64,000 nucleotides of DNA from Nitrosopumilus sp. b1. GTDB lineage: Archaea; Thermoproteota; Nitrososphaeria; Nitrososphaerales; Nitrosopumilaceae. The stretch is from positions 213,915 to 277,914 of the forward strand of contig NZ_MU078723.1 of assembly GCF_014078545.1 (NCBI RefSeq), given 5' to 3'. The position numbers and the translations under genes were made by a program. A model generated the notes under the pieces. The model was not told where the DNA came from and ran no database searches. It worked only from the letters and a program-made list of their open reading frames with translations. Below, piece after piece: positions 3,524-16,366 of this stretch. Each line of letters starts with the position of its first letter. Position 1 is the stretch's first letter.

Positions 3524-4027
3524 TTATGGAATGGTTGCTCGAAGCATCCAAGCCATCTTTTCATGGTTTTCCATAAGACCCGTCAGAAAGTCACTTGTTC
3601 CCATGTCGTTGAACTCTTCGTCACACCTTGCAAGGTCTTTTCTTAAAGATTGAATGATTGACTCGTGGTCTGCAATCAGATTCTTTACCATCTGAGTATC
3701 AGAAGGATAAACACCTGGCTGTTCTTGCAATCTGGAATGAGATTTCATCTCCTCTAATGTTCCAATTGCTTTTCCACCGAGTTGTCTGATTCGTTCTGCC
3801 ACGTCATCTATGAATACTGCAAGCTGATCATACTGACCCTCAAAGAATTTGTGATAGTCATTAAAGTGCGGACTGATAACATTCCAGTGATAGTTTCTAG
3901 TCTTTGTAACTAAAACATATTCATCAGCTAGAAGTTTTGTCAGCATTGATATCACTGCTTCACGGTCGTTTTCTTGAAGTCCAATGTTTACGTCATCTTC
4001 AATCATTTTGTCTATTTTTTGTGCCAT
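3524..4027 (-). CDS. dps: Dps ferritin-like DNA-protection protein
   Basis: The 167-residue four-helix protein has the complete Dps ferroxidase set. His47 in NYHWNV, His59, Asp74 and Glu78 reproduce the H-x11-H-x14-D-x3-E spacing of E. coli Dps (H51, H63, D78, E82). Dps dodecamers oxidise Fe(II) with H2O2, store ferric iron and protect DNA from Fenton damage. The gene has its own promoter with a TTAGCACTAG element 17 nt upstream of the TATA box, the first member of the regulon described below. It is convergent with the VIT-type metal transporter (8-nt gap). Confidence 0.92.
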   Translation of the reverse strand: MAQKIDKMIEDDVNIGLQENDREAVISMLTKLLADEYVLVTKTRNYHWNVISPHFNDYHKFFEGQYDQLAVFIDDVAERIRQLGGKAIGTLEEMKSHSRLQEQPGVYPSDTQMVKNLIADHESIIQSLRKDLARCDEEFNDMGTSDFLTGLMENHEKMAWMLRATIP

Positions 4028-4049: not shown

Positions 4050-4087
4050 TATTTATGCATTATATGAAAACAATCTAGTGCTAAAAA
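4050..4087 (-). promoter_or_regulatory. Dps promoter with CACTAG element
   Basis: Read on the minus strand, TTAGCACTAG (4075-4084, extended by further T to 4087) is followed by a 17-nt gap and a TATA-like CATAAATA (4050-4057), centred about 26 nt before the ATG at 4027. This is promoter A of ten sharing the element and spacing. Confidence 0.75.
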
Positions 4088-4480
4088 TTAATAATAAATT
4101 CTGTCTTGTAACATTGCTTTACCATATTTTGATTTTTTGATTATTTCAAAAAGAAAATCCATCTCGTTTGGCTTGAAGATTACAGCGACGGGTTCATAAC
4201 GACGGATTTTTTCTGCGAGTTGCATTTCATGATGGGCAGTAACTACAATTATTTTTGCATTTGGATCATAAGTTTTAATTTTTTCAATTCCGTATCCGCC
4301 ATCAAACTTAGGCATCATGATATCCATAATTACAAAATCAGGCATGGATTTTTTATAGAGACAAAAAGCTTCATCCCCATTTCGTGCATGACCCAAAACA
4401 TCAAAACCTTTTGCACGAAATAATTGTTCCCATGTTTCAGTGATGGTAGGTTCATCATCAATTAGTATGACGCTCGTCAA
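4088..4480 (-). CDS. Stand-alone response regulator receiver domain
   Basis: A complete CheY-type receiver of 130 residues. Acidic pocket Asp8/Asp9, phosphoacceptor Asp53 (VIMDIMMP), Thr81 and Lys103 (IFKPN) are all present. There is no output domain, so it acts by protein contacts. It is closely similar in layout to the receiver at 35922-36305 (same residue numbers for all active-site positions). A TTG start at 4480 is used, with an AT-rich TATA-like stretch (TTTAAAAATT on the minus strand) upstream. No histidine kinase is adjacent. The 3' end abuts the Dps promoter element. Confidence 0.88.
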   Translation of the reverse strand: MTSVILIDDEPTITETWEQLFRAKGFDVLGHARNGDEAFCLYKKSMPDFVIMDIMMPKFDGGYGIEKIKTYDPNAKIIVVTAHHEMQLAEKIRRYEPVAVIFKPNEMDFLFEIIKKSKYGKAMLQDRIYY

Positions 4481-4557
4481 TGAATTAAATTACAATTTTT
4501 AAATAATATCTAGATGTGTGTAATTGGATTACATACATAAAATTGAAAAAATAGGCA

Positions 4558-5934
4558 TCAGATTGGTTTTCCACGATACTGATGTCGAATTACTTTATGG
4601 AATAGATTATGCGATGCAACAACTGTCAGTGAAGCAATTGCGATTCCAATAAAGTTTCTAATGGTCATCATCTCATTTGGCTGTTGAGCTATTAACGACA
4701 TTTGAAAGACAACATAATAGTTATCAAACAACCAAAACGCCAACGTAACCCAAGACAAAACGCCTGCTATGAAATAGCCTAGCCGGGTTTTGTTTCTAAC
4801 AAAAATTATTGCTGCAATAATTGTTACGTACCAGATGGCAGAACCTAATAGCCACATTGGATTAAAGACATCTACCCGGTCATCTAACCAATAATAGCTG
4901 GTACCAACAATTGCAAGAGCAATCAAAGAGACCACTAGAATGTTTTGATTTATCTTAAAACTTGAGCGCTCCTCAATCAATTCTGCAGTTGGAGGGTTTT
5001 TTGCCATATCCTTTGTTGCAACATCTATTGATTCACGCACGGATTTGAGGCGTAATGGGATTATTTTGGTAATAGAATCATCCTGAACGACAGTATCATG
5101 AACAAGACTATCAATTAATGGTCTTGCCAAGGAAGCCTTTACTGGAGTTATCAAGTCCACCCAATAAGATGAAAGCCTTGTTGTTAAAAATGGAATTTGA
5201 ATTACAAACAAGTTTTTGTTCAAATAAGCAGAATATGATCTCATTATTTCCTCGTATGTCATCAAGTCAGGTCCACCAATCTCGAAAATCTTTCCGGCTG
5301 TTTCTGGATGTTCCATGCAGCCAACAAGATACGACACCACATCATCAACTGCAATTGGTTGGGCAAGTGACTTGACCCATTTTGGGCACACCATTATTCG
5401 TAGTCGTTCAACTAAATATCGTAACATAGCATAGGAGCCTCCCCCTGCACCAATAATCAAAGAAGCCCTAAGTTCTGTTACTTGAACACTTCCAGATGCA
5501 AGTATTTGACCCACTTCCTTTCTGCTCTGCATATGTGGAGACAGTTCAAGACTGTCATTTACAAGACCGCCAAGATAGATTATTCTTTTGACACCTGCAC
5601 GTGTTGCAGCTTTTAGAAAGTTTTGAGCTTGTGTTTTTTCACGTTTGATAAAATCCTTCCAATCAGATTTACTTCCCTCCATTGAGTGAAGTAGGTAAAA
5701 TGCAACTTCAATTCCTTCCATTGCACTTGTCAAGGAATCGATATCAAAGACATCAGCCTGTACATATTTTACGTTTTTTTCATCAGAAAGTTTTCTCCTT
5801 GACATTCCCTTTATGGTGTAATTATTTTCAGAAAGAGTTTTGATGAGTCTCGCACCAATAAATCCAGTTGCCCCAGTAACAAGAATGTTGTAGGGCTTTT
5901 TTTGCATGTGTTGCTGGGTAGACTGCTGCTCCAT
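4558..5934 (-). CDS. NAD(P)-dependent SDR (NmrA/complex-I-39kDa type) with C-terminal membrane domain
   Basis: Residues 15-300 form an atypical short-chain dehydrogenase with the Rossmann motif VTGATGFIGARLIK and later QADVFD and AFYLLHSM, typical of the NmrA/NDUFA9-like group. The SDR catalytic Tyr-x3-Lys is not obvious, so it may bind nucleotide as a sensor or scaffold. Residues about 330-450 contain four predicted TM helices. The gene follows a 66-residue membrane protein by 1 nt and is probably the last gene of an operon starting at 6193 under a CACTAG-element promoter. SDRs of this kind are often found near photolyase genes in bacteria, which fits the stress/light context here (inference). 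Confidence 0.8.
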   Translation of the reverse strand: MEQQSTQQHMQKKPYNILVTGATGFIGARLIKTLSENNYTIKGMSRRKLSDEKNVKYVQADVFDIDSLTSAMEGIEVAFYLLHSMEGSKSDWKDFIKREKTQAQNFLKAATRAGVKRIIYLGGLVNDSLELSPHMQSRKEVGQILASGSVQVTELRASLIIGAGGGSYAMLRYLVERLRIMVCPKWVKSLAQPIAVDDVVSYLVGCMEHPETAGKIFEIGGPDLMTYEEIMRSYSAYLNKNLFVIQIPFLTTRLSSYWVDLITPVKASLARPLIDSLVHDTVVQDDSITKIIPLRLKSVRESIDVATKDMAKNPPTAELIEERSSFKINQNILVVSLIALAIVGTSYYWLDDRVDVFNPMWLLGSAIWYVTIIAAIIFVRNKTRLGYFIAGVLSWVTLAFWLFDNYYVVFQMSLIAQQPNEMMTIRNFIGIAIASLTVVASHNLFHKVIRHQYRGKPI

Positions 5935-5935
5935 T

Positions 5936-6136
5936 TTATCTCATCGCTTCAAGTTTTGCAATCTTGGCTTTCCTTGCCTTTAGTCCTAAACCAGTAGTGA
6001 TTCCACCGATTACTAACCAAAGTACTCCTCCGGCTTGAAATGCAGATATTAGATTTGGATCGAGTGCCCCTGCAGCAAAAAAGCTTGCAGCAAGACCCAA
6101 GAGTGAAACTCCAGAGATAATCAGCACCTTATCCAA
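5936..6136 (-). CDS. Small two-TM protein
   Basis: This 66-residue protein has two hydrophobic helices (about residues 4-23 and 32-51) and a basic C-terminal tail (GLKARKAKIAKLEAMR). No family is recognised. A TTG start at 6136 directly follows the stop codon of an 18-codon mini-ORF (TAGTTG), suggesting translational coupling. It is 1 nt upstream of the membrane-anchored SDR gene, so the two products may form a membrane complex (inference). Confidence 0.7.
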   Translation of the reverse strand: MDKVLIISGVSLLGLAASFFAAGALDPNLISAFQAGGVLWLVIGGITTGLGLKARKAKIAKLEAMR

Positions 6137-6193
6137 CTAAGTCTCTCTCCAGTTATCAGTTTGAGGTATTCTTTTGAATTGCTTTTGCTTCAT
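6137..6193 (-). CDS. 18-residue leader mini-ORF
   Basis: The ATG at 6193 opens MKQKQFKRIPQTDNWRET and stops immediately before the TTG of the 66-residue membrane protein. A TATA box (TTTAAATA on the minus strand, 6216-6223) is centred 26 nt upstream, so the first codon of a leaderless transcript would be this ATG. It is either a true micro-protein or a device that brings ribosomes to the following TTG. Conservation across relatives would decide. Confidence 0.5.
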   Translation of the reverse strand: MKQKQFKRIPQTDNWRET

Positions 6194-6215
6194 AGTGGAA
6201 TTGGTGCTCTTATTT

Positions 6216-6253
6216 TATTTAAAATAGTGCTAATGTGAATATCTAGTGCCCAA
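6216..6253 (-). promoter_or_regulatory. Promoter of SDR operon with CACTAG element
   Basis: On the minus strand TTGGGCACTAG (6243-6253), a 19-nt gap and the TATA box TTTAAATA (6216-6223) precede the mini-ORF start at 6193. A second degenerate copy TTAGCACTAT (6224-6233) abuts the TATA box. The distal element overlaps the stop codon of the gene at 6254. Confidence 0.7.
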
Positions 6254-6604
6254 CTAATTAGGAATAAAGTCAGAGATGTTAGTCTTAGAGACTTTCAGCC
6301 CAGGAATGGTTTTGTCAATAAATGATGCAACAATCCCCAATGAGGATTTTACACCGTTGGTCTTTTCAGGATCAGTCCCAGGGTACAACCGCACGGTGGT
6401 CTTTTGCTCATTTGTTGAAATTTCAATGAGAAAATCTTGATGCTTCTCATCTATAACGACTGCTGGAAGAAGCATCTTTCGCTTTTCATTATCGATATAC
6501 ACCTCAGTTACCTTAATCAAGTAAGGTTCTTTTTGCATAATTGGATTAAATTTTTCATACAACTCTTGGAGGTTAATCTTTTTATCAAATACTACATGAG
6601 GCAA
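6254..6604 (-). CDS. Conserved-looking protein of unknown function (116 aa)
   Basis: A soluble alpha/beta protein with strands YLIKVTEVYID, KMLLPAVVID, FLIEIST and TTVRLYPG, ending in a hydrophobic IPGLKVSKTNISDFIP. I do not recognise the family. It uses a TTG start at 6604, and a TATA-like CTTTATGA on the minus strand lies about 20 nt upstream. Unlike its neighbours it lacks the CACTAG element, so it may not belong to the same regulon. Confidence 0.65.
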   Translation of the reverse strand: MPHVVFDKKINLQELYEKFNPIMQKEPYLIKVTEVYIDNEKRKMLLPAVVIDEKHQDFLIEISTNEQKTTVRLYPGTDPEKTNGVKSSLGIVASFIDKTIPGLKVSKTNISDFIPN

Positions 6605-6716
6605 AACTTTTCACGACCGTTCATAAAGTAGAATAATTCATGTGTGTTTTTAAAATGATTCATTAGAAATTCATGGTGCCAACAATATTTAGAGGATAGG
6701 AAAAGAAGGTGATTTA

Positions 6717-6754
6717 TTTTAGCACTAGAGAAAAAAGTAGTTTTGTTTTAAATA
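6717..6754 (+). promoter_or_regulatory. Promoter of zinc-ribbon/TFB operon with CACTAG element
   Basis: TTTTAGCACTAG (6717-6728), an 18-nt gap, then TATA box TTTAAATA (6747-6754), centred 25-26 nt before the ATG at 6776. Confidence 0.75.
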
Positions 6755-6775
6755 AATAATAGAGTACAGTTAGGT

Positions 6776-6937
6776 ATGAACAGTTCACATGTTTTAGCAC
6801 AGAAGTTTGATGATGAGAATCACATTGTTGTTAATAGAACCCTAAAGATCTGCATCAATTGTGGATATGATGAAGTGGACAAAACAGAATTTAGCTTATC
6901 GTGCGAGAATTGCGGAACAACTATGTTTTTTGAGTAA
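6776..6937 (+). CDS. 53-residue zinc-ribbon protein
   Basis: The ATG at 6776 opens a short protein with two Cys knuckles, CINCGY (about residues 26-31) and CENCGTTMFF (about 43-52), forming a complete zinc ribbon. The TATA box at 6747-6754 places its ATG exactly where a leaderless transcript should start. It is followed after 10 nt by the TFB gene, whose own N-terminal ribbon looks degenerate. The small ribbon could therefore assist the TFB in trans (inference), or be an independent adaptor. Confidence 0.7.
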   Translation: MNSSHVLAQKFDDENHIVVNRTLKICINCGYDEVDKTEFSLSCENCGTTMFFE

Positions 6938-6947
6938 GGTGAAAAAA

Positions 6948-7844
6948 ATGAATCATAAAGAAGATTGTACTAGACTAGAATTAATTACAGATTCGGGAAC
7001 TGGCGAAGTAAATTGTAAAAATTGTGGCTCTGTGCTTAATGAAAAACCAATTGAATCTGCATCCAGTTTTAAAACAAATGACGATGGTGTTGATATCAAT
7101 CAAACAGGACCGCCAACTAGCATCAAGTTTGCAGACATGGGCCTGTCCACACAAATAGGTATTGCAAATAAGGACTCGACTGGAAAATTTCTCAATGGCG
7201 AGAATAAGCGAATATTCCATAGATTAAGAATTTGGGACAAACGCTCAGTAAGTAAGTCCCATAATGCATCATACGCCAAAGCATTTACACTTTTAGATTC
7301 ACTCAAGACAAAACTTTCCCTTCCAGAGTCAGTCATACAAAAGTCTGCTCTTCTTTACAGAAAGAGTGTGGCAAAAAGAGTACTTATCGGCAGATCAACT
7401 GCAGAGATATTGTGCTCTGTTGTGTACCTAGCCTGTAGGCTAAGCAACACTCCTCGCTCTATACAAGATATTTCAGAAGCTGCAAATATCAAGAAAAAAG
7501 CATTGCAGAGAATCTACAGAATGCTACTAAGGGAGCTAGATGTTAAACCAGAAACGTTTAGCCCAACGGACTTTGTCAATAAGATATCATACCATGTTGA
7601 TGCATCTGAGCAATCAAGAAGACTAGCCATTGAAATTCTAGATACATCAATAAAATTGGGACTCTGTGAAGGAAAGAATCCAGTAGGACTAGCATCAGCC
7701 TCAGTATATTTGGCTGCAGCAAAACATGGAGAATCTGTCTCACAGGTCGATATTTCAAAAGTTTCTGGAATCAGTGCAGTAACAATTAGAGAAAGAGCAA
7801 AATTACTAAAGAAGGTCGCAGATAAAATGGGTGCTAAGAGTTGA
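6948..7844 (+). CDS. tfb: Transcription initiation factor B (TFB)
   Basis: A 298-residue archaeal TFIIB homologue. The N-terminal ribbon reads LITDSGTGEV then CKNCGSVL, but the usual first CxxC is reduced to His3 and Cys7. The linker region IGIANKDSTGKFLNGENK corresponds to the B-reader. Two cyclin repeats follow (about 95-190 and 200-295), with SAEILCSVVYLACRLSNTPR-like and ASASVYLAAAKHG segments. The ATG at 6948 (GTG at 6939 is a close alternative) gives the normal TFB length. TFB recruits RNA polymerase to TBP-bound promoters. Thaumarchaea encode several TFBs; this one is itself downstream of a CACTAG-element promoter, suggesting a condition-specific factor. Confidence 0.93.
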   Translation: MNHKEDCTRLELITDSGTGEVNCKNCGSVLNEKPIESASSFKTNDDGVDINQTGPPTSIKFADMGLSTQIGIANKDSTGKFLNGENKRIFHRLRIWDKRSVSKSHNASYAKAFTLLDSLKTKLSLPESVIQKSALLYRKSVAKRVLIGRSTAEILCSVVYLACRLSNTPRSIQDISEAANIKKKALQRIYRMLLRELDVKPETFSPTDFVNKISYHVDASEQSRRLAIEILDTSIKLGLCEGKNPVGLASASVYLAAAKHGESVSQVDISKVSGISAVTIRERAKLLKKVADKMGAKS

Positions 7845-8125
7845 CAGACATCATCTGGGGAAACGTGGTAAGAATTCTATCAGGTAATACTTTTGAGCTA
7901 AATGTTACGCACCAAAAGGATGGTAATGATGAGCAGTATCCGGAAACTCAAGGAATAGAGATCGACAAGACAGACATTGTAACCATTCCAGTTGAACCAA
8001 ATCAAAGAACAGCTTCTAATCTAGAGCAGGGTTTGATGAACCAATTCGTAAAGTGTGAGATAAAGCAAAAAAAGGACAATTTGCTTGTTGCAGATGTATC
8101 ACACTCTGGTCAAGGCGGATATTAG
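7841..8125 (+). CDS. Small protein, possibly SNase-like/OB strand fold
   Basis: The 94-residue product starts at a TTG overlapping the TFB stop (TTGA), so it is translationally coupled to TFB. The opening WGNVVRILSGNTFELNV resembles the first strands of staphylococcal-nuclease-like OB folds (V-x-DGDTF), but catalytic residues and the rest of the domain are missing. Function is unknown; a small OB-type binding protein is a guess. It lies 2 nt upstream of the 2OG-Fe(II) oxygenase. Confidence 0.65.
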   Translation: MTDIIWGNVVRILSGNTFELNVTHQKDGNDEQYPETQGIEIDKTDIVTIPVEPNQRTASNLEQGLMNQFVKCEIKQKKDNLLVADVSHSGQGGY

Positions 8126-8127
8126 AA

Positions 8128-8904
8128 TTGTGGAATCCAATCATAATATCAGTAAAAGACAAAAAATTAGGAAATGCATTAAATCTACTCAAATCAGCAG
8201 ATACCCCAGCATTAGTACTGAAAAATTTTTTTCCTAAAGAATCTTGCGATATAGTTTCAAGTCGTGTTACGGAATATTTTTCAAAAAATAAATGTGGGAA
8301 TAATAAAAAAATTGGAATATCGCTTGTATCGTTGCGTAACGATAAAGAAAACTACTTTAAAATGGCAGATGCAGCAAGGTCTGTAATTAGAAATATTTTT
8401 CATGGCATGCAAGATCCTAGAAAAAAAATTCATTCAGAATTAAAAGAAATTTTGAATATAGATGACATAAGCATTGCAAAAGAAAAAGACTCAAGATATG
8501 CTTGTGGAGTAATTCGAATTCACGATAAAGAATCAGAATCATCACTACATAGAGACAATGTAAGTTTTGAGGCACCACACTTCTCGGTAAGCAATCTTAA
8601 AAGTCAACTTTCATTCGTACTACCATTTCAATCACCAGATAAAGGTGGAGAATTACAGTTATTTCATCAGAGGTGGAAGGAAAAAGATGAAAAATTTAGG
8701 AGAGTTGACTTTGGCTACTATGATGAGGTCATCATGCAAAATGTGGAATCAGTAAAAATCAGTCCCACCAAAGGTGATTTGATGGTTATTAATCCAAATT
8801 TGTATCATAGAATTCAACCAGTAGTAGGTGAAAAGTTACGAATTACTTTGAACATGTTTGCTGGTTTTTTACCAAATAAAAACGAAATCTTGACGTGGTC
8901 CTAA
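8128..8904 (+). CDS. 2-oxoglutarate/Fe(II)-dependent oxygenase
   Basis: This 258-residue protein has the double-stranded beta-helix signature: His141-x-Asp143 (SLHRDN), distal His227 (NLYHRI) and Arg238 (KLRIT), spaced as in the prolyl-hydroxylase/2OG-Fe(II) oxygenase superfamily. The segment GGELQLFHQRW is a typical core strand. Such enzymes hydroxylate proteins, nucleic acids or small molecules; the substrate is not evident. TTG start 2 nt after the preceding gene, last gene of the zinc-ribbon/TFB operon. Co-transcription with a TFB and proximity to photolyase make a repair or stress role attractive but unproven. Confidence 0.82.
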   Translation: MWNPIIISVKDKKLGNALNLLKSADTPALVLKNFFPKESCDIVSSRVTEYFSKNKCGNNKKIGISLVSLRNDKENYFKMADAARSVIRNIFHGMQDPRKKIHSELKEILNIDDISIAKEKDSRYACGVIRIHDKESESSLHRDNVSFEAPHFSVSNLKSQLSFVLPFQSPDKGGELQLFHQRWKEKDEKFRRVDFGYYDEVIMQNVESVKISPTKGDLMVINPNLYHRIQPVVGEKLRITLNMFAGFLPNKNEILTWS

Positions 8905-8911
8905 TTGGTTT

Positions 8912-9277
8912 CTAAAATGATTTTCCGAGTTCTTTGAGTTTTTTCAAATCAGTTATCTCAATATCTTTACTGAGAGTCACAATTCTTGCAAGCTTTGGAT
9001 TTGCCTTTTCTCCTAATCTCAAAACTAAATCTCCCTTGTATTTTATATCAAGTGTGACTTTTTCTTCACGGAGTTTTTTTGCCAAACTTTTTGCCTCACT
9101 TAATTGCTTAATCAGACCAGGCTTTCCAGACACCTTGATTGGGATGTCAAGAATATCAATTGTTCTTGTGTTTTTTGTGGATGAAAAATTTATTGCAGGT
9201 TGATCATCGCATTGAATTTTGAGATCACCCTTTGCAAGAGATATTAAAAAATTGGCTTGGAGATTAGATTTTGTCAT
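8912..9277 (-). CDS. Unknown small protein (121 aa)
   Basis: Lys-rich soluble protein with strands IDILDIPIKVSG, VTLDIKYKGDLVLRLG and IVTLSKDIEITD separated by a helix (LIKQLSEAKSLAKKLREE). I do not recognise the family. It follows the 61-residue gene by 12 nt and should be co-transcribed from the promoter at 9498-9533. It is convergent with the 2OG oxygenase gene. Confidence 0.65.
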   Translation of the reverse strand: MTKSNLQANFLISLAKGDLKIQCDDQPAINFSSTKNTRTIDILDIPIKVSGKPGLIKQLSEAKSLAKKLREEKVTLDIKYKGDLVLRLGEKANPKLARIVTLSKDIEITDLKKLKELGKSF

Positions 9278-9289
9278 TTTCTCCTACAC

Positions 9290-9475
9290 CTACTTTGTTG
9301 TAATAGTCAACTTCCCAGTAAGGGAAACTGTTCCTGTTGGGACATGCTTACCACCACGTTCTACTTTACCTGACATCTCAAGGTCATCAAATACGTAGGT
9401 TATAGCGGCATGTTTCTCAGTTAGTTTGTCAAAAACTTCGGCAAGCAAATTTGCCCATTCTTGTTCTTCTGCCAT
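9290..9475 (-). CDS. Unknown 61-residue protein
   Basis: A helix (WANLLAEVFDKLTEKHA) is followed by three short strands (ITYVFDDLEMSG, TGTVSLTGKLTI). No family is recognised. The ATG at 9475 lies 26 nt from the centre of a TATA box (TTTAAATA, minus strand), with a CACTAG element upstream that is shared as a palindrome with the divergent DICT gene. First gene of a two-gene operon. Confidence 0.7.
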   Translation of the reverse strand: MAEEQEWANLLAEVFDKLTEKHAAITYVFDDLEMSGKVERGGKHVPTGTVSLTGKLTITTK

Positions 9476-9497
9476 GAGTCCCTAGGGTATTTTTTAG

Positions 9498-9533
9498 TAT
9501 TTAAAAGAAGTAAGAACCACATCCTAGTGGTAA
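9498..9533 (-). promoter_or_regulatory. Leftward promoter of divergent pair with CACTAG element
   Basis: On the minus strand TTACCACTAG (9524-9533), an 18-nt gap and TTTAAATA (9498-9505) precede the ATG at 9475. The element is the left arm of a 21-bp near-perfect palindrome whose right arm belongs to the rightward promoter. Confidence 0.75.
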
Positions 9534-9570
9534 TTTAGCACTAGAACTAATGCTTGTTACTATTTTAATA
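9534..9570 (+). promoter_or_regulatory. Rightward promoter of divergent pair with CACTAG element
   Basis: TTTAGCACTAG (9534-9544), an 18-nt gap and TTTTAATA (9563-9570), centred 26-27 nt before the ATG at 9593. With 9524-9533 it forms an inverted repeat (CTAGTGGTAA, one T, TTAGCACTAG). Confidence 0.75.
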
Positions 9571-9592
9571 CAAAAAAAATGCTGTCAAAACA

Positions 9593-10156
9593 ATGGAGCA
9601 AAAATACACCAGCTACATAGAGAATGTATATGAAGAATATCAGACGCTAAAGAAAGTTCCCAACACAGATGAAGATGAATTCATGAAGATATCCCTTGAT
9701 GAATTAATCAAAAAAGGATACATCAACTTCAAAGCATCAAAAAAGCCGCTAGTAAGATTAAGTATACTTATTGAAATGTTTGCAAAGAAGAATAAAACTG
9801 CTTTATTGGCAACTTTTGAAGACGAGGGTAAATTCAAGTATGCAGAGGATAGATATCTTGAGCTAATGAGAAAACTTCCTCGCGTATGGGTAATTGGAAA
9901 TTTCAAAAACCCATTTCTTGCACAGAATTTTCCAGGTAATGCAAAGACAATTAGCTGTAATAGTACATCTCTAAGTACAGTATGGGCCGTAATAACCAAG
10001 GGGCCAGCAGGCCCGATGGGGCTTGTTGCTGAAGAACAATCAGATGAAACTTTCAGAGGATTCTTTTCTGTGTCCCCAAAGATTGTTCAGTCATCAATTG
10101 ATCTCATAAACTATATCCTCAAAGAAGACATAGACATTAACAAAGTCGAGGAATAG
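9593..10156 (+). CDS. DICT sensory-domain protein
   Basis: The 187-residue protein begins with a helical segment (1-60). The C-terminal two thirds look like a DICT domain: TALLATFEDE, a helix ending in LMRKLPRVWVIGNF, then STVWAVITKGPAG, GLVAEEQ and RGFFSVSPKIVQSSIDLI. DICT is a sensory domain named from diguanylate cyclases and two-component systems and has been predicted to serve light responses. There is no fused output domain. It sits in the middle of the photolyase/Dps/TFB neighbourhood and has its own CACTAG promoter. It is a candidate for the signal-receiving component (inference). Confidence 0.75.
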   Translation: MEQKYTSYIENVYEEYQTLKKVPNTDEDEFMKISLDELIKKGYINFKASKKPLVRLSILIEMFAKKNKTALLATFEDEGKFKYAEDRYLELMRKLPRVWVIGNFKNPFLAQNFPGNAKTISCNSTSLSTVWAVITKGPAGPMGLVAEEQSDETFRGFFSVSPKIVQSSIDLINYILKEDIDINKVEE

Positions 10157-10190
10157 ATTCTTTATTTTTTATTTTAAAAAAGAAAAAGTG

Positions 10191-10547
10191 CTAGTTGTGT
10201 CTAGCATTTGCTTGACCTTTGATCTCAACAATGTCAGAGTCAGATGCTATAGTCTGAACGTTGTCAATACTCATCAGTCCTGATAGTACAACACCATCAT
10301 GCCATCTGCTAACAGATGATTGGATGGGATACTTGTCACGAATTTCTTCTACCTTTTTATCAAGCTTTATTCCATCATGATACTTTACGTACAAGTTCAC
10401 ATGTGGCTTGCTTCTTGATGGAGATATTTTTTTCAGACTGCGCTGAATTTGCATTATCCTAATTGCAAGATCAGGATCCAATGCAGGTGTGCTTGAAAGT
10501 ATGTGCTGGTAGAATTGGTCGTATATCGGCTCAAGGCTTTGTTTCAT
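10191..10547 (-). CDS. 118-residue protein, copy 1 of tandem pair (peptidase-inhibitor-I9-like fold?)
   Basis: Almost the same length and sequence as the neighbour at 10634-10990: shared blocks are LAIRIMQIQR versus LAIKIMRIQR, SRSKPHVNLYVKY versus TRSKPHVNLYVKY, and LSGLMSIDNVQTI in both. The strand-helix-strand layout with an ending like SDSDIVEIKG recalls the ferredoxin-like fold of subtilisin propeptides/I9 inhibitors, but this is pattern recognition only. It may alternatively be a ligand-binding ACT-like domain. It has its own promoter with two CACTAG elements. Confidence 0.7.
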   Translation of the reverse strand: MKQSLEPIYDQFYQHILSSTPALDPDLAIRIMQIQRSLKKISPSRSKPHVNLYVKYHDGIKLDKKVEEIRDKYPIQSSVSRWHDGVVLSGLMSIDNVQTIASDSDIVEIKGQANARHN

Positions 10548-10568
10548 TAATTCAATTGGCCTTTGATG

Positions 10569-10608
10569 ATATTTAACTAGTGGTAAAAATAATGGCTAGT
10601 GCTAATTT
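10569..10608 (-). promoter_or_regulatory. Promoter with two CACTAG elements
   Basis: On the minus strand a distal AAATTAGCACTAG (10596-10608), 19-nt gap and TATA box (TTAAATAT, 10569-10576) precede the ATG at 10547. A proximal copy TTTTTACCACTAG (10577-10589) directly abuts the TATA box, giving a 19-bp-phased direct repeat. Confidence 0.72.
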
Positions 10609-10633
10609 TAAAAATAAAATGGAAAAGAATAGT

Positions 10634-10990
10634 TTAGTTGTGCCGAGAGTTTGCTTCGCCATTTACCTCAGTGATATCAGGATCGGAACAAATGGTTTGA
10701 ACGTTATCAATACTCATCAATCCAGATAGAATTATTCCGTCATTCCATCGACTAACTGAGGCCTGTATTGGGTATTTGTCACGAATTCGGTCAACTTTTT
10801 CTTGGTATTCGATTCCTTCCTTGTACTTTACATACAAGTTTACGTGAGGTTTGCTCCTAGTGGGAGATATTTTTTCCAGTTTTCGTTGAATTCTCATTAT
10901 CTTTATTGCTAGGTCGGGCTCTATTGGAGGAATTTGCGTCTTTACCTCTTTACGAAATGAATTGTAGAGTTCTGTTATTGGACTAGACAT
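10634..10990 (-). CDS. 118-residue protein, copy 2 of tandem pair
   Basis: Paralogue of the adjacent 10191-10547 gene with identical length and co-linear alignment. The conserved core is ISPTRSKPHVNLYVKY, then IRDKYPIQASVSRWNDG and LSGLMSIDNVQTI, ending in a similar Arg-His-Asn tail. It lies 10 nt downstream of the membrane-protein gene at 11001-11576 and is probably expressed from that gene's CACTAG promoter, so the two copies are under separate but equivalent control. Function is unknown. Confidence 0.7.
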   Translation of the reverse strand: MSSPITELYNSFRKEVKTQIPPIEPDLAIKIMRIQRKLEKISPTRSKPHVNLYVKYKEGIEYQEKVDRIRDKYPIQASVSRWNDGIILSGLMSIDNVQTICSDPDITEVNGEANSRHN

Positions 10991-11000
10991 TTCTATTCAC

Positions 11001-11576
11001 CTAAAGGAATCCCTTTATCCTTGGAACTTTGGCATAGTCTTCATGGAGAATGAACCCAGTCATCAATCCCATCACAACTCCAAATAACACATGAAGGAAT
11101 AATGAGAACCACAATACACGGTCAGTCTCAAGCAGTAAGTGATACAGCCCTCCGAGCTCTTCAACGGATAGTCGGGATTCATCAATTACATTAAACTCGG
11201 CTACCATACTTGGCATCATTACAAAGTAATGAATCGGCAAGAAGAATAATGTAAAAACAACTATTCCAGTTAATGCACCAGTAAGTATTCCCTTCGGTAC
11301 AGTAACAATACGAAATGCCCTCCATATACTTGCAGACATTGAATAGCAAGCACCAATTAATGCTGCAGCGCCCATATGTGACATAAATCCAAATGCAATT
11401 GCACTTGTGCTGTCAATGCCAGCTACAATTCCAATCGTTTTGTAAAAAGTACCATTTGGGATATCAAGCTGCGCATCAATTGCTAAGAATGATGAAAATA
11501 ATGCAAATCCGCCCACTAATCCGGCCATTGCTCCAACTTTTGCTTTTCCTAGAATCGAACTTTTTTGATTCGTCAT
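11001..11576 (-). CDS. Four-TM membrane protein of unknown function
   Basis: The 191-residue protein has hydrophobic helices at about residues 11-32, 55-82, 95-120 and 155-180. Notable are a Gly-rich start (GAMAGLVGGFALF), IGACYSM, and a long external loop (120-150) containing a short acidic segment. No family is recognised. The ATG at 11576 is 26 nt from a TATA box, with a CACTAG element upstream. It is first in an operon with the second 118-residue paralogue. Confidence 0.75.
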   Translation of the reverse strand: MTNQKSSILGKAKVGAMAGLVGGFALFSSFLAIDAQLDIPNGTFYKTIGIVAGIDSTSAIAFGFMSHMGAAALIGACYSMSASIWRAFRIVTVPKGILTGALTGIVVFTLFFLPIHYFVMMPSMVAEFNVIDESRLSVEELGGLYHLLLETDRVLWFSLFLHVLFGVVMGLMTGFILHEDYAKVPRIKGFL

Positions 11577-11598
11577 TGCAACCCTTTCGTCGTTGACC

Positions 11599-11636
11599 GT
11601 ATTTAAGGTTCAATGTTTCAAAGTCTAGTGCTAAAA
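11599..11636 (-). promoter_or_regulatory. Promoter with CACTAG element
   Basis: On the minus strand TTTTAGCACTAG (11625-11636), an 18-nt gap and TTAAATAC (11599-11606) lie upstream of the ATG at 11576. Confidence 0.75.
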
Positions 11637-11743
11637 TAATTACAAAGATCTGTAAAAAAATTATAGAATAATTTTTATTATAAATGAAAATTACGAGAAG
11701 AATTATCCATTACAATTTTTAAAAAATAAAATCTTAGAAATAA

Positions 11744-11781
11744 ATTACCACTAGCTAAAAAGTATCTTCGTTCATTTATAG
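11744..11781 (+). promoter_or_regulatory. Promoter of DUF523/photolyase operon with CACTAG element
   Basis: ATTACCACTAG (11744-11754), a 19-nt gap and ATTTATAG (11774-11781), centred 24-25 nt before the ATG at 11802. The stretch 11637-11743 is AT-rich and holds no other recognisable feature. Confidence 0.75.
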
Positions 11782-11801
11782 TCCAAAACAAATTATGATT
11801 A

Positions 11802-12776
11802 ATGTCAAAACGTTACAGGCCGATTGTTGGAGTTAGCAAATGCTTAGAGTTTGATAACTGTAGATACGACGGAAAGCTTTTGAATAATTCATTTGTCAAT
11901 AAGTTAAAAGAATTTGTAGATTTTATTCCAGTTTGCCCTGAGATGGGAATAGGACTAGGATCGCCACGAAAACCAATAAGATTGGTGCGCATAGGAAAGG
12001 AAAAGAACCTCTATCAGCCTTCAACAGACACGAATCTTACTCAGAAGATGAGGGATTTCACAGAGGAGTTTACTTCTTCCATTTCCAAGATCGATGGATT
12101 TATCCTAAAAAGAGGATCCCCAACATGTGGAATCAATAATGTGAGAATGTATCACAATACCCAAAAGGATGTAGCATATGACAAATCAAGTGGGCTTTTT
12201 GCTGAGATGGTCATAAAAAAATTCCCGTTAATTATTCGAGAAGATGAAGGAAGACTGAACAACCTTACCATCCGTGAAAATTTTCTCACAAGACTCTTTG
12301 CGATGTGTAAATTGAGAAAAATTATAGAAAATAATTCACTCAATGAACTAGAAGAATTCCATAAGAATAATCACGTCTTGTTTATTCAACACAGCCTAAA
12401 ATTAACAATGGAATTAGATTTAATTTTGAAAAACAAGACAAAGGTAAATTTTGATGAATTGAGTTCCACATACAAGAGGATTACCTATAATATTCTGTGT
12501 AGAGTTCCGTCCAAAGATGGAGTTAAACAAAGCATAGATGAGATATATTATTTTACAAAAGAAAAAATATCAGACTCAGAGGCTCAGCATTTTACCCAAA
12601 TAGTAAAGGAATATGATAATGGAATAATTCAGCCATCCCATATTTTTACACTGTTGTATTCTTGGGTTTTACGATTTGGAATTGTGGAATTACAAGATCA
12701 GACAATATTCAATCCATTTCCAAAAGATCTAATCAAAGATCTCTTATCAAAACCAAAAGAATACGCCATAGCATGA
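11802..12776 (+). CDS. DUF523-DUF1722 fusion protein (TudS-like/YbgA-like)
   Basis: Residues 1-150 are a DUF523 domain with its Cys motifs VSKCL (Cys14), VCPE (Cys45) and KRGSPTCG (Cys109). In TudS desulfidases three such cysteines hold a [4Fe-4S] cluster. Residues about 170-310 form the helical DUF1722 (YbgA) domain, with HHVLF-like KNNHVLFIQHS and RITYNILCRVPSKDGVKQ. The same domain is adjacent to the photolyase gene phr in E. coli (ybgA). Here it heads the operon ending in photolyase, which supports a role tied to UV or thionucleoside damage (inference). Its promoter bears the CACTAG element. Confidence 0.88.
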   Translation: MSKRYRPIVGVSKCLEFDNCRYDGKLLNNSFVNKLKEFVDFIPVCPEMGIGLGSPRKPIRLVRIGKEKNLYQPSTDTNLTQKMRDFTEEFTSSISKIDGFILKRGSPTCGINNVRMYHNTQKDVAYDKSSGLFAEMVIKKFPLIIREDEGRLNNLTIRENFLTRLFAMCKLRKIIENNSLNELEEFHKNNHVLFIQHSLKLTMELDLILKNKTKVNFDELSSTYKRITYNILCRVPSKDGVKQSIDEIYYFTKEKISDSEAQHFTQIVKEYDNGIIQPSHIFTLLYSWVLRFGIVELQDQTIFNPFPKDLIKDLLSKPKEYAIA

Positions 12777-12862
12777 AATGTTGGCACTATTGCAAAAATT
12801 GTCACCAGTATATATGCAATGAAACATACAACCCACTATGCAAAAGGAAAAAGAACCAATGA
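12773..12862 (+). CDS. 29-residue Cys-rich micro-protein
   Basis: The ATG overlaps the stop of the DUF523-DUF1722 gene (ATGA). The product MKCWHYCKNCHQYICNETYN continues to a second LCKRKK motif, giving five cysteines and two histidines, enough to bind zinc or a metal cluster. Its stop overlaps the ATG of the next micro-ORF in the same ATGA manner. The double coupling argues that it is translated. Family unknown. Confidence 0.6.
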   Translation: MKCWHYCKNCHQYICNETYNPLCKRKKNQ

Positions 12863-12948
12863 GTGGAAAAAAACTCTTTGGATTAATTGCTGCAGTCATG
12901 GTCGGAACTGTGATTGTAGGCCTAGTGCTGTTTACAAACTTTTTGTAG
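12859..12948 (+). CDS. 29-residue single-TM micro-protein
   Basis: Starts inside the stop codon of the preceding Cys-rich micro-ORF (ATGA). After MSGKK almost the whole chain is one hydrophobic helix (LFGLIAAVMVGTVIVGLVLF). It is followed after 48 nt by photolyase. It could anchor a partner at the membrane or be a membrane-stress micro-protein; no homologue is recognised. Confidence 0.6.
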   Translation: MSGKKLFGLIAAVMVGTVIVGLVLFTNFL

Positions 12949-12996
12949 GCAGCAAAAATTTTTTTTATATTTAATCAATAAATGAAATGAAAAATT

Positions 12997-14361
12997 ATGT
13001 CGAAATTTAAAAAAAGCCTTTTTATTTTTAGAAGAGATCTCAGATTAGAGGACAATACAGCACTAATAGATGCTTGCGTGCATTCTAAGGAAGTAATTCC
13101 TTGTTTTATTTTTGATTCTGAAATAATGAAATCCTTCAAAAATTCTAATTTTAGAATCAGATTTTTAATTGAATCACTAATGGACTTGCAATCACAGCTA
13201 AAAAAGTCAGAAGGTAGATTGCAAATATATCAAGGAAAAAGTTTGCAAATCATCAAAAAGATAAAAAAGCAATTTGATTTTGATGCAGTTTTTACAAATA
13301 CAGATTTTACGAAGGCAAGTATGTGTAGAGATAAAGAGATCAGAGATTTTTGCAAAAAGAAGAATATGGAATTTGTAGCCCTAGCAGATTTGACGCTACA
13401 AAATTTTGATCGAATTAGGACTGCAGAAGGAAGCCCCTACAAAGTATATACACAATTTTTTAAAAAAGCCAGATTGGTCAAAGTCAGAGAACCCCAGTGC
13501 TTTAGATACAAAAATTTCATTAAAAAAAGTAGTCCAGATGAGAAAAACCTCGATGACCTCTCAAAAAAATATCCAGAAACAAATTCCCCTATCAAGGGGG
13601 GCACAAAGCAAGCAAAAAGAATCCTGAATAATCTTTCAAAATTCAAAAATTATGATAAAGACAGGAATTATCCTCACATGGATGCAACAACTCATCTATC
13701 ATCTCACAACAAGTTTGGTACGTGTTCAATAAGGGAGATTTATCATAAAATTATAAACGAATTAGGAAAGAATCACACCTTAATCAACGAATTGTATTGG
13801 AGAGATTTTTTTATCAGCATTATGTATCATTATCCTTACACGTTTAATTCATCATTTAGAAAAAAATATTCAAAAATCCCATGGAGTAAGAATGAAGAGA
13901 ATTTTAAAAAATGGTGTAAAGGAATAACAGGTTTTCCCATTGTTGATGCAGGAATGAGACAACTTAATGCAACAGGATACATGCATAACAGAATCAGAAT
14001 GATTGTTGCGTCATTTTTAACAAAAGATCTTCACATTAATTGGAAGTGGGGAGAGAGATACTTTGCTGAAAAGCTAATCGATTATGATCCTTCAGTGAAT
14101 GTAGGCAATTGGCAATGGGCTGCATCTACGGGATGTGACTCACAGCCATGGTTTAGAATATTCAATCCATGGTTACAGCAAAAAAAGTATGATCCTGATT
14201 GCAAGTATACCAAAAAATGGATTCCAGAACTTGAAAATATACCTGTAAAGGACATCCATAATTGGGATAAAGTAGAGATAAAAATTTCCTATCCATCTCC
14301 CATTGTAGATCATAAAGAAGAATCTTCCCACACAAAACAAGTTTTCAAAAAATTTTCATAA
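12997..14361 (+). CDS. phr: Deoxyribodipyrimidine photolyase (class I CPD photolyase)
   Basis: The 454-residue protein has an N-terminal alpha/beta antenna domain (SLFIFRRDLRLEDNTALIDA at about 7-26) and a helical FAD domain (about 205-450). The latter carries ELYWRDFF, GFPIVDAGMRQL, the electron-transfer tryptophans in HINWKWGERYF, and NVGNWQWAASTGCD. It repairs UV-induced cyclobutane pyrimidine dimers using light. Archaeal class I enzymes can use a deazaflavin antenna, and CofE in this window shows that deazaflavin chemistry exists. It is last in the DUF523-DUF1722 operon but also has a TATA-like TTTATATT about 27 nt upstream of the ATG. Confidence 0.95.
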   Translation: MSKFKKSLFIFRRDLRLEDNTALIDACVHSKEVIPCFIFDSEIMKSFKNSNFRIRFLIESLMDLQSQLKKSEGRLQIYQGKSLQIIKKIKKQFDFDAVFTNTDFTKASMCRDKEIRDFCKKKNMEFVALADLTLQNFDRIRTAEGSPYKVYTQFFKKARLVKVREPQCFRYKNFIKKSSPDEKNLDDLSKKYPETNSPIKGGTKQAKRILNNLSKFKNYDKDRNYPHMDATTHLSSHNKFGTCSIREIYHKIINELGKNHTLINELYWRDFFISIMYHYPYTFNSSFRKKYSKIPWSKNEENFKKWCKGITGFPIVDAGMRQLNATGYMHNRIRMIVASFLTKDLHINWKWGERYFAEKLIDYDPSVNVGNWQWAASTGCDSQPWFRIFNPWLQQKKYDPDCKYTKKWIPELENIPVKDIHNWDKVEIKISYPSPIVDHKEESSHTKQVFKKFS

Positions 14362-14364
14362 TAA

Positions 14365-14400
14365 TTGACACTAGATAATTTTCAGCAATAGATTTTATAC
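14365..14400 (+). promoter_or_regulatory. Nitroreductase promoter with CACTAG element
   Basis: TTGACACTAG (14365-14374), an 18-nt gap, TTTTATAC (14393-14400). The usual 26-27 nt spacing from the TATA centre lands on the ATG at 14423 and not on the upstream ATG at 14411. Confidence 0.7.
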
Positions 14401-14422
14401 TTAAAAAACGATGACAGAAAAT

Positions 14423-15025
14423 ATGAACACACTTGAAGCTATAGAAGCCAGAAGATCAATTAAAAATTTTGATCCTACTCATATTATGCCAGAGGACATT
14501 GAAAAAAAGTTATTTTCTTCGGTGTTACTCTCTCCTACTTCATTTAACATTCAGCATTGGCGTTTTGTCTTGGTCAAAGATAAACAGATGAGGGAAAAGA
14601 TCAAAACAGTATCATTTAATCAACCCAAAGTAACAGATGCCTCACTTTTAGTCGTGATCTGCGGAGATACTCAAGCCTGGAGGAAAGATCCTAGAAGATA
14701 TTGGAAAAATGCTTCAGAGTCAGATAGAAATAATTTGCTACCAATGATTGAGGCGTTTTACAGTGGCCGCGAAGAAATGCAGAAGGAGGAAGCTATAAGA
14801 TCATGCAGTATTGCTGCACAAACATTGATGATTGCTGCAAAATCCCTTGGTTATGACACGGCCCCAATGATAGGTTTTAATCAAATTGAGGTTGGGAAGA
14901 TCATAAACTTGCCAGATGACCATTTAATTGCGATGATTGTCTGTGTTGGCAAAGCAAAGGATCCACCCTTACCTAGAGGCGGACAATTAGACTATAGACA
15001 AGTAATCATCGAAGACAAATTTTGA
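14423..15025 (+). CDS. Nitroreductase-family flavoprotein
   Basis: About 200 residues with the classic N-terminus AIEARRSIKNF (FMN phosphate-binding RRS), then LSPTSFNIQHWRFVLV and a C-terminal LGYDTAPMIGFN and MIVCVGKAKDPPLPR. Family members are FMN-dependent NAD(P)H oxidoreductases that reduce quinones, nitro compounds or flavins. The ATG at 14423 is preferred because the TATA box is centred 26-27 nt before it; the ATG at 14411 would add four residues and sit only about 14 nt from the TATA box. It is transcribed alone from a CACTAG promoter, suggesting oxidative-stress induction. Confidence 0.88.
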   Translation: MNTLEAIEARRSIKNFDPTHIMPEDIEKKLFSSVLLSPTSFNIQHWRFVLVKDKQMREKIKTVSFNQPKVTDASLLVVICGDTQAWRKDPRRYWKNASESDRNNLLPMIEAFYSGREEMQKEEAIRSCSIAAQTLMIAAKSLGYDTAPMIGFNQIEVGKIINLPDDHLIAMIVCVGKAKDPPLPRGGQLDYRQVIIEDKF

Positions 15026-15050
15026 ATTAGTTTTTTTGTAGTTCCTTGGT

Positions 15051-15722
15051 CTATGAAAGTTTTCTTTTCACAACGTAAAGTAATGGAATAAACAAAATTA
15101 TCGGAATAGGGATTAGCATTGATAAATAATCTTCAAAAAAGTATTTTGTCTCAAACCATGCCATTGGCAGTACAGTAAAAATGTCAACTGCTGAAAAATC
15201 CTCTATAGTTCCAACTGCAAGGGCATATTTGCCCTGCATTCCCTGAGAATCATAAACTACCAGATAGTACTGGCCATCTTGAGGAATAATGATGTTAATT
15301 TCCTGGCGTTCCCAGTACGTAGCCTGACCAAATGGCTCGTAGAATTCATTTGATGGTATTGCGCCCTCATACTTGGAAATCAATCCTGCGCTTTGGATAA
15401 TTTTTTCAATGTCATTAGTGTCTGAAATTTCTGTACCGCTGAATAATGCAAGATAAGGCTTGTAATTTTCGTATCTGTCAATTTTGGGAATAACTATACT
15501 AGAATAAACAGAATCTCCGGCCTTTGCTTCAAAAGTATAGAATTTTTTTTGATTTGCATCCAAGGTTTCAAAAATAACCCAAGAGATCTTATGGTCAGGA
15601 ATTAACAATGCATTTTCAATTGAGATGTTTTCTTCAGTTGTGGAAAGTGGTTTGTGAGAAAATGCAGGTTGAAGTGTAAATCCAATTATGAATACTATTA
15701 AAACTAAAACTTTTGAATTCAT
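15051..15722 (-). CDS. Secreted, membrane-anchored protein of unknown function
   Basis: A signal peptide (MNSKVLVLIVFIIGFTLQPA, cleavage near residue 22) leads to an external beta-rich domain of about 165 residues. This contains WVIFETL, KFYTFEAKAGDSVYSSIVIP and a C-terminal DGQYYLVVYDSQGMQGKYALAVG block like pre-peptidase C-terminal or jelly-roll folds. One C-terminal TM (about 200-218) ends in VVKRKLS. It is probably anchored to the outside of the cell membrane. Adjacent genes are in the CACTAG regulon, but this promoter shows no element in the right orientation. Confidence 0.72.
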   Translation of the reverse strand: MNSKVLVLIVFIIGFTLQPAFSHKPLSTTEENISIENALLIPDHKISWVIFETLDANQKKFYTFEAKAGDSVYSSIVIPKIDRYENYKPYLALFSGTEISDTNDIEKIIQSAGLISKYEGAIPSNEFYEPFGQATYWERQEINIIIPQDGQYYLVVYDSQGMQGKYALAVGTIEDFSAVDIFTVLPMAWFETKYFFEDYLSMLIPIPIILFIPLLYVVKRKLS

Positions 15723-15770
15723 GCTCTTTCTTGTTTTGTTTGTTAATATAGGAGGTACAAACTTTTCAAA

Positions 15771-15808
15771 GTTGGCACTAGCTATCTACTTTATCACTAT
15801 TCATATAC
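15771..15808 (+). promoter_or_regulatory. Promoter of zinc-ribbon/flavin-binding operon with CACTAG element
   Basis: GTTGGCACTAG (15771-15781), a 19-nt gap and TCATATAC (15801-15808), centred 24-25 nt before the ATG at 15829. Confidence 0.72.
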
Positions 15809-15928: not shown

Positions 15929-16366
15929 TTGCAAGTTCTAATTCAGAAAGATGTAGATTCTCTAATTAACAGCACAAAGATTCCAGTTCGATTATCATGT
16001 ATAATGCCAAATGGGTTTCCTTGTGTACTATCATTGTGGTTTATTTGTGTAGATGGAAAGCTGTGTTGTGCAACACAGGAATCAGCAAAAATTGTAACAT
16101 ATTTGAAAAAAAATAGTTCATGTGCATTTGAGATTGCAGCTGACACCCCACCATACAGAGGAATTAGGGGGTACGGAGTGGCAAAAATTAGAAGAGACAC
16201 CGGAATTGAAATTTTGAATAAATTAATTGACAGATACCTGGAAAATAAAGAATCAAAGTTGGCAAAATTTTTAAGAAAAAATTCTGAAAATGAAGTTGCA
16301 ATAGAGATTACGCCAAGGAGGATTTTCTCATATGACTATTCAAAGCGAATGAGTGATTCAAAATGA
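15929..16366 (+). CDS. Pyridoxamine-phosphate-oxidase-like FMN-binding split barrel protein
   Basis: The 145-residue protein has the pattern of the PNPOx-like family: KIPVRLSCIMPNGFPCVLSLWF, then KLCCATQESAKIVTYLKKNSSC and PYRGIRGYGVAKI. Such proteins bind FMN, F420 or heme and reduce varied substrates. Substrate cannot be predicted. In F420-producing organisms related proteins often use F420, which is a plausible alternative here. TTG start at 15929, coupled to the zinc-ribbon micro-protein upstream and overlapped (ATGA) by the next one. Confidence 0.8.
   Translation: MQVLIQKDVDSLINSTKIPVRLSCIMPNGFPCVLSLWFICVDGKLCCATQESAKIVTYLKKNSSCAFEIAADTPPYRGIRGYGVAKIRRDTGIEILNKLIDRYLENKESKLAKFLRKNSENEVAIEITPRRIFSYDYSKRMSDSK

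Follow-up and report, generated by a model that had tools for sequence, protein, structure and literature searches.

A CACTAG promoter element in Nitrosopumilus as the predicted operator of a B12-binding, CarH/LitR-like protein

Genes and CACTAG elements of the window

We analysed a 64-kb stretch of the Nitrosopumilus sp. b1 genome (contig NZ_MU078723.1; referred to as the window, 64,000 nucleotides), in which ten promoters between 4.0 and 15.8 kb carry the element CACTAG. The host genome encodes an archaeal AmoA (E 1.3e-118). Our best reading of the sequences is a predicted regulon of photolyase, RudS-like, Dps, short-chain dehydrogenase/reductase (SDR), transcription factor B (TFB) and redox genes, with the element as the likely operator (probability about 0.6) of a vitamin B12-binding, CarH/LitR-like light-sensor repressor encoded elsewhere in the genome. 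The elements and genes are as follows.

3524..4027, minus strand: Dps-like ferritin (PF00210, E 1.4e-29)
4075..4084, minus: element TTAGCACTAG before Dps, kept in the sister species (G001)
4558..5934, minus: SDR / NAD(P)-binding protein (PF13460, E 1.2e-14)
6243..6252, minus: element TGGGCACTAG before the unit of a 66-amino-acid gene and SDR; second copy TTAGCACTA at 6225-6233
6719..6728, plus: element TTAGCACTAG before the zinc-ribbon-like/TFB/oxygenase unit
6776..6937, plus: 53-amino-acid zinc-ribbon-like protein (weak Pfam matches)
6948..7844, plus: TFB (PF00382, E 5.8e-31; start set from the orthologue in G001)
8128..8904, plus: WelO5-like 2-oxoglutarate-Fe(II) oxygenase (PF22814, E 3.1e-35)
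9524..9533, minus: element TTACCACTAG before the 61-amino-acid gene 9290-9475
9535..9544, plus: element TTAGCACTAG before the DICT-like gene, with a degenerate (6/8) second copy 19 bp downstream
9593..10156, plus: DICT-like protein, weak assignment
10577..10586, minus: proximal element TTACCACTAG, abutting the TATA box, 19 bp from the distal copy
10596..10605, minus: distal element TTAGCACTAG before 10191-10547
11625..11634, minus: element TTAGCACTAG before the 191-amino-acid gene 11001-11576
11745..11754, plus: element TTACCACTAG before the RudS-like gene, with the photolyase further downstream
11802..12776, plus: RudS-like protein, TudS desulfidase + DUF1722 (PF04463, E 7.5e-36; PF08349, E 7.3e-16)
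12997..14361, plus: DNA photolyase (PF03441, E 8.9e-81; PF00875, E 1.7e-36)
14365..14374, plus: element TTGACACTAG before the nitroreductase
14411..15025, plus: nitroreductase-family protein (PF00881, E 1.9e-27)
15772..15781, plus: element TTGGCACTAG, followed by its second copy TTATCACTA at 15791-15799, upstream of a short Cys-rich gene and the gene at 15929
15929..16366, plus: pyridoxamine-phosphate-oxidase-like protein, weak (PF12900, E 0.011, below cut-off)

The pattern TTNNCACTAG occurs ten times in the window against 1.98 expected, a count reached in 0 of 100 shuffles, and all ten matches are intergenic and lie within 4.0-15.8 kb. CACTAG itself was found 38 times against 14.7 expected. 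With a threshold of 55 amino acids for an open reading frame (ORF), 26 of the 38 lie inside ORFs and the 12 outside are all at 4.0-15.8 kb, one of them (12922) within a very short reading frame as judged by eye. CACTAG and its complement CTAGTG jointly rank top among the 880 intergenic hexamers of the window with three G+C. A preliminary description of this DNA listed ten promoters with TT[AG][GCA]CACTAG; nine of the sites read so, and the tenth, at 6243-6252, reads TGGGCACTAG and shares just the CACTAG that is indeed common to all ten. That list omitted the element at 10577-10586 (minus strand), which abuts the TATA box 19 bp downstream of 10596-10605; the ten promoters hold 11 elements in total (the ten TTNNCACTAG matches and the 6243 variant). 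The further statement that the remaining CACTAG occurrences are coding was borne out, every one outside 4.0-15.8 kb lying in an ORF of at least 55 amino acids. The 21-bp palindrome at 9524-9544, proposed as a binding unit, proved to be two divergent promoters placed back to back, and the unit that recurs is instead a direct repeat of 18-19 bp.

Promoter architecture

To describe the promoters we used 501 distinct TTRVCACTAG instances, counting a second copy where at least 7 of 8 positions matched. A second copy lies downstream at +19 in 107 instances and at +18 in 39, with 0 to 7 at other downstream offsets, and TTWWATA starts at +29/+30 from the element start in 216 of the 501 and at +11 in 28. 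The full unit is a distal element, 8-9 nt, a proximal element and the TATA box; many promoters have this direct repeat with the second copy at TATA and others a single element. In archaeal promoters TFB makes its contact at the B recognition element (BRE), and the proximal copy occupies the position where this contact would be made. In 8 of the 14 gene families richest in sites, the element lies a median of 57-58 nt from the start codon; these 8 include the families of the B12-binding protein, TFB, the 61-amino-acid protein, a flavoprotein and a family of about 300 amino acids here labelled c5. Leaderless mRNA occurs in archaea, and this distance would fit it. Second copies are common before B12, c5 and SDR genes. 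In the window the second copy at +19 is complete at three promoters (10605, 6252, 15772) and weaker at a fourth (9535).

The element in the host genome and across the family

In the genome-wide scan proposed in the preliminary description, the strict form TTASCACTAG is the sole form standing out, with 20 matches in the window's genome (G000) against 4 for reversed controls and 15 against 2 in the sister species. The loose form TTNNCACTAG is weak (95 against 61 reversed controls), the spacing form CACTAGN{15,21}TTWAWA does no better than its control (14 against 13), and TTASCACTA lacking the final G gives 48 matches against 52 reversed controls. Elsewhere in the host genome, elements at C9:21022-24430 precede an amine-oxidase-like flavoprotein and a c5 gene, and another stands before a 154-amino-acid gene at C17:122654; a canonical element also precedes a small winged helix-turn-helix (wHTH) gene at C37:12007 (L051:4017).

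Conservation upstream of orthologues was found in the sister species and, across genera, in other members of the family. The promoters of Dps, TFB, the 61-amino-acid gene and the flavin-type gene carry the element in their G001 counterparts too, with flanks that are near-identical to the window for Dps and less similar for the other three. These conserved orthologous promoters support well the earlier proposal of a coherent regulon of light/UV-type genes under one element. Over 151 family genomes, TTRSCACTAG-N14-19-TATA gave 179 matches, a few elements being counted twice at two gap lengths, against 6 for controls. The exact doubled TTASCACTAG with 8-10 nt spacing is present in 9 of the 151, with no reversed control. 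In 20 islands (14-20 kb, from 20 genomes) centred on TFB relatives, and therefore chosen by protein rather than motif, we counted 142 TTNNCACTAG against about 10 expected, with just 3 in G020. The island genomes partly recur among the named loci used below, so that the separate counts are not independent.

Within the host genome a doubled element (39238/39257) was also seen at G000:C3:39238-39266, some 300 bp upstream of the gene for an M48 peptidase, and this 29-nt stretch is identical in G001.

A B12-binding protein gene that accompanies the element

The preliminary description proposed one dedicated regulator and left it unnamed; the window holds none, and the best candidate, a B12-binding protein, is encoded on another contig. 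Its gene is the second commonest of the islands (18 of 21, the window's included), and its product has about 280 amino acids with PF02607 and PF02310 domains. In the host genome it lies as follows.

C9:22184-23029 (L045:8185-9030): B12-binding protein gene, on a contig other than the window's

The protein of the sister species is 95% identical to that of the host genome. Matches at E 1e-40 or better were found in 67 of the 151 family genomes, 32 of which have a close version (at least 66% identity to the G045 query). All 32 have at least one strict site and 29 have at least two, with a mean of 4.4; the other 35 comprise G000 (9 sites), G001 (6), G014 (2) and 32 more, and the 84 genomes lacking a match total 13 sites (mean 0.15). 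Even where the protein has diverged to about 50% identity, the element stands 56-57 nt before its gene in G018, G061, G075 and G115, and in G002 and G043 it stands before the adjacent c5 gene, abutting TATA. Upstream sequence of more than 350 bp was available for 78 of 80 named loci, and in 68 of the 78 TTNNCACTAG lies within 350 bp upstream of the B12 gene, as compared with 37 of 380 other genes of at least 150 amino acids in the named loci, part of which may perhaps reflect an intergenic region common with a regulon gene. Nine of the ten remaining B12 genes have one- or two-base variants upstream, eight of them at -57/-58 or -38/-39, a loose pattern counted without a chance control.

The c5 family (L045:9303-10199 and relatives) is the most consistent target of the element, at 69 of the 75 loci that have the gene. 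It adjoins the B12 gene even in distant genomes, and in the host genome the c5 gene is followed by the B12 gene. Its members have a signal-peptide-like start by eye and no Pfam match above cut-off.

Sensor half and N-terminal domain of the B12 protein

The motifs of CarH are given as Wx9EH and D/ExHx2G/Px41SxT/Vx22-27GG in the accessible part of the source (PMC9304148). Residues W128, E138-H139, E173-x-H175-x2-G178, S220-x-T222 and G248-G249 of the archaeal protein fit them. Wx9EH was present in 80 of 80 named loci and in 186 of 187 database proteins of at least 250 amino acids, and the B12-binding motif in 78 and 181 of these, respectively. The AlphaFold model has a mean predicted local distance difference test (pLDDT) score of 89, and its closest folds in Foldseek are the cobalamin domains of photocobilins and CarH; for the CarH fold 8c36_B this predicted model gave E 6.2e-12 and a template modelling (TM) score of 0.84 by target length. 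The best NCBIfam model is likewise CarH (E 3e-16), at 59.5 bits against a cut-off of 400. Because this curated cut-off is missed and a MerR domain is absent, the protein is not filed as a CarH member. Database names among 120 matches listed of 1482 include 'histidine kinase', 'methanogenic corrinoid protein MtbC1' and 'cobalamin-dependent protein', and two JGI entries among the same 120 read 'MerR family transcriptional regulator, light-induced transcriptional regulator'. Adenosylcobalamin should be available, since the genome has genes from two adenosyltransferase families.

The N-terminal 74 residues have 21 positions that are invariant in 32 sequences, many of them basic or aromatic. This domain is modelled as a three-stranded sheet followed by helices, and is not MerR-like in sequence or in the predicted model.

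Comparison with bacterial light-sensing systems

The predicted system shares with CarH/LitR a four-helix cap with Wx9EH and a Rossmann B12 motif in a similar predicted fold, and the presence of photolyase, SDR, FAD-oxidoreductase and RudS genes among or beside the targets. The direct repeats at TATA may also correspond to the tandem-repeat operator that overlaps the core promoter in CarH/LitR systems, although other archaeal promoters have single elements. It differs in that CarH and LitR are bacterial and have a MerR winged helix, whereas the archaeal N-terminus is a predicted three-stranded sheet with helices, and in that the archaeal TTASCACTAG has an 18-19 bp period, as compared with the 11-bp repeats of CarH and the TGTACA-N12-TGTACA of LitR. 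A bacterial parallel is the class II LitR repressor of Pseudomonas: according to the accessible text of the source, it reads TGTACA-N12-TGTACA, with an 18-bp period, over a -35 box, and its region includes photolyase, SDR and FAD-dependent oxidoreductase genes. In gene content and predicted operator layout the archaeal system resembles this region; the DNA motif and N-terminal domain differ. RudS, a protein of TudS + DUF1722 architecture, stands in a LitR-controlled operon with PhrB, according to the available portion of PMC11417400. The window gene at 11802-12776 has the identical order of the two domains in one polypeptide (PF04463 at 9-149, then PF08349 at 193-307) and the predicted activity of a RudS tRNA 4-thiouridine desulfidase, but is archaeal and lies behind a CACTAG promoter. 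Photocobilins (PDB 8j2w/8j2x) rank first for the B12 half in both Foldseek and sequence-profile comparison, but the match begins at their chain start, so that they have nothing like the archaeal N-terminal domain. Searches of open-licence PubMed Central papers turned up neither archaeal B12 photoregulation nor the CACTAG element, nor a light-dependent transcription system described for ammonia-oxidising archaea.

A second B12 paralogue of the host genome (L051:6890-7756, G000:C37) lacks the Trp and EH of Wx9EH and the lower-ligand His. Close to this paralogue are a photolyase-related (DPRP) gene and the wHTH gene with a CACTAG promoter. The paralogue's residue loss is of the kind seen in CarA, the B12-independent paralogue of CarH; a loss of this kind separates CarA from CarH in Myxococcus, where CarA keeps the EH and the B12-binding motif (PMC9304148, accessible part), both of which are lost in L051:6890-7756.

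A predicted light-responsive regulon and its alternatives

For the B12 protein we infer light as the signal, DNA binding and a repressor sign. Its N-terminal domain would bind the CACTAG element and its chromophore would be adenosylcobalamin. In the dark, the adenosylcobalamin-bound protein would sit on the distal element and the TATA-abutting copy and block TFB/TBP, so that the UV- and light-defence genes would be held down; in the light, breakage of the Co-C bond would cause the protein to leave the DNA and free the genes, and the TFB of the unit, as a putative regulon member, would amplify the response. We give somewhat better than even odds to the joint claim that a CarH-type photosensor on a new class of DNA-binding domain reads CACTAG direct repeats at BRE/TATA and governs a light-defence regulon that has a TFB of its own, as the archaeal counterpart of the bacterial LitR regulon. 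The finding names a candidate photoreceptor, a putative operator and target genes. If true, it would extend B12 photoregulation to Archaea and join a known sensor to a novel DNA-contact domain that works at a TBP/TFB promoter. Light effects on ammonia-oxidising archaea and photolyases in their surface lineages are described in the accessible part of PMC10232715, and B12 production by these archaea in that of PMC8123684; the latter would be linked to light sensing.

Several observations weigh against a B12-dependent repressor. Instances of the element share kinship and are not independent, and co-occurrence alone does not name the reader of the element, as it would be expected of every member of the regulon. 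Leaving aside G000, G001 and G014, strict sites are scarce genome-wide (mean 0.25) in the 32 genomes whose B12 proteins are more distant, ten of the 84 genomes without a B12 match carry at least one site, and in G040 (two sites; 99% complete) and G100 (three) a TFB is present and the B12 gene was undetected. The N-terminal domain has no Pfam match and no confident fold match, and as a conserved basic domain is a putative DNA-contact domain from its conservation alone. A Pseudomonas LitR with a similar operator is switched by a LOV protein and not by its own B12, as far as the accessible text of the source goes. The window's assembly has an estimated contamination of 7.97%, a worry that is offset by G001 (0% contamination), which has both the island and the B12 gene. 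Finally, a second copy at +18/+19 is found at 0 of 39 distinct elements directly upstream of TFB genes and at 2 of 12 where a zinc-ribbon gene precedes TFB, the TFB promoters and the B12/c5 promoters being two promoter classes; six of the ten window promoters also have none, and a single site at fixed distance above TATA fits an activator too.

The alternatives that we weighed concern the sign of the regulator and its identity. The B12 protein may read the element as an activator that is bound at the distal copy and touches TFB/TBP at a fixed helical phase, the proximal copy serving negative autoregulation. We keep this reading because the distal element stands at a constant distance from TATA and is often alone, as at the TFB promoters, and nonetheless consider it unlikely: a TATA-abutting proximal copy would compete with the BRE contact, such a copy is the one that precedes the neighbour of the B12 gene in G002 and G043, both distant genomes, and the characterised homologues of the sensor are dark repressors in the available parts of their descriptions. 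It is improbable that the element is a variant BRE-type core element read by the island TFB in the manner of an alternative sigma factor, with the B12 gene as one target. All 28 genomes with a TFB match at E <1e-80 have sites, the TFB unit itself bears the element and the proximal copy lies at the BRE position. However, 8 of the 32 close-B12 genomes lack such a TFB match and yet have 1 to 9 sites, which makes TFB less likely as the reader, and the distal copy, about 19 bp above TATA, is beyond the reach of the BRE as generally placed. Very unlikely, in our estimate, is a reader such as the small wHTH protein at G000:C37, with the B12 protein as partner or target; its own gene has a canonical element with the photolyase-related gene and the B12 paralogue nearby, but a BLAST comparison with the proteins encoded in the 21 islands gave no match to it, and 18 of these islands have the B12 gene.

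Further features of the islands

The TFB at 6948..7844 has two PF00382 stretches, corresponding to the two TFIIB cyclin repeats, and its N-terminal zinc ribbon (PF08271) scores 26.7 bits, under the cut-off of 29. The DICT label given earlier to the product of 9593..10156 is weak but plausible, with PF10069 hits (E 0.1 or better) for 7 of 14 family members, the best at 0.0003 and that of the window protein at 0.058. The genes 10191-10547 and 10634-10990 are a tandem of related 118-amino-acid genes with the doubled element at the first, the product of which has no Pfam match. The best match of the oxygenase at 8128-8904 in the TFB unit is the WelO5 carrier-independent halogenase family. A cysteine-rich protein of about 60 amino acids is encoded in 15 of 21 islands, often directly after TFB (L045:16559-16804, L115:10320-10502 and relatives).

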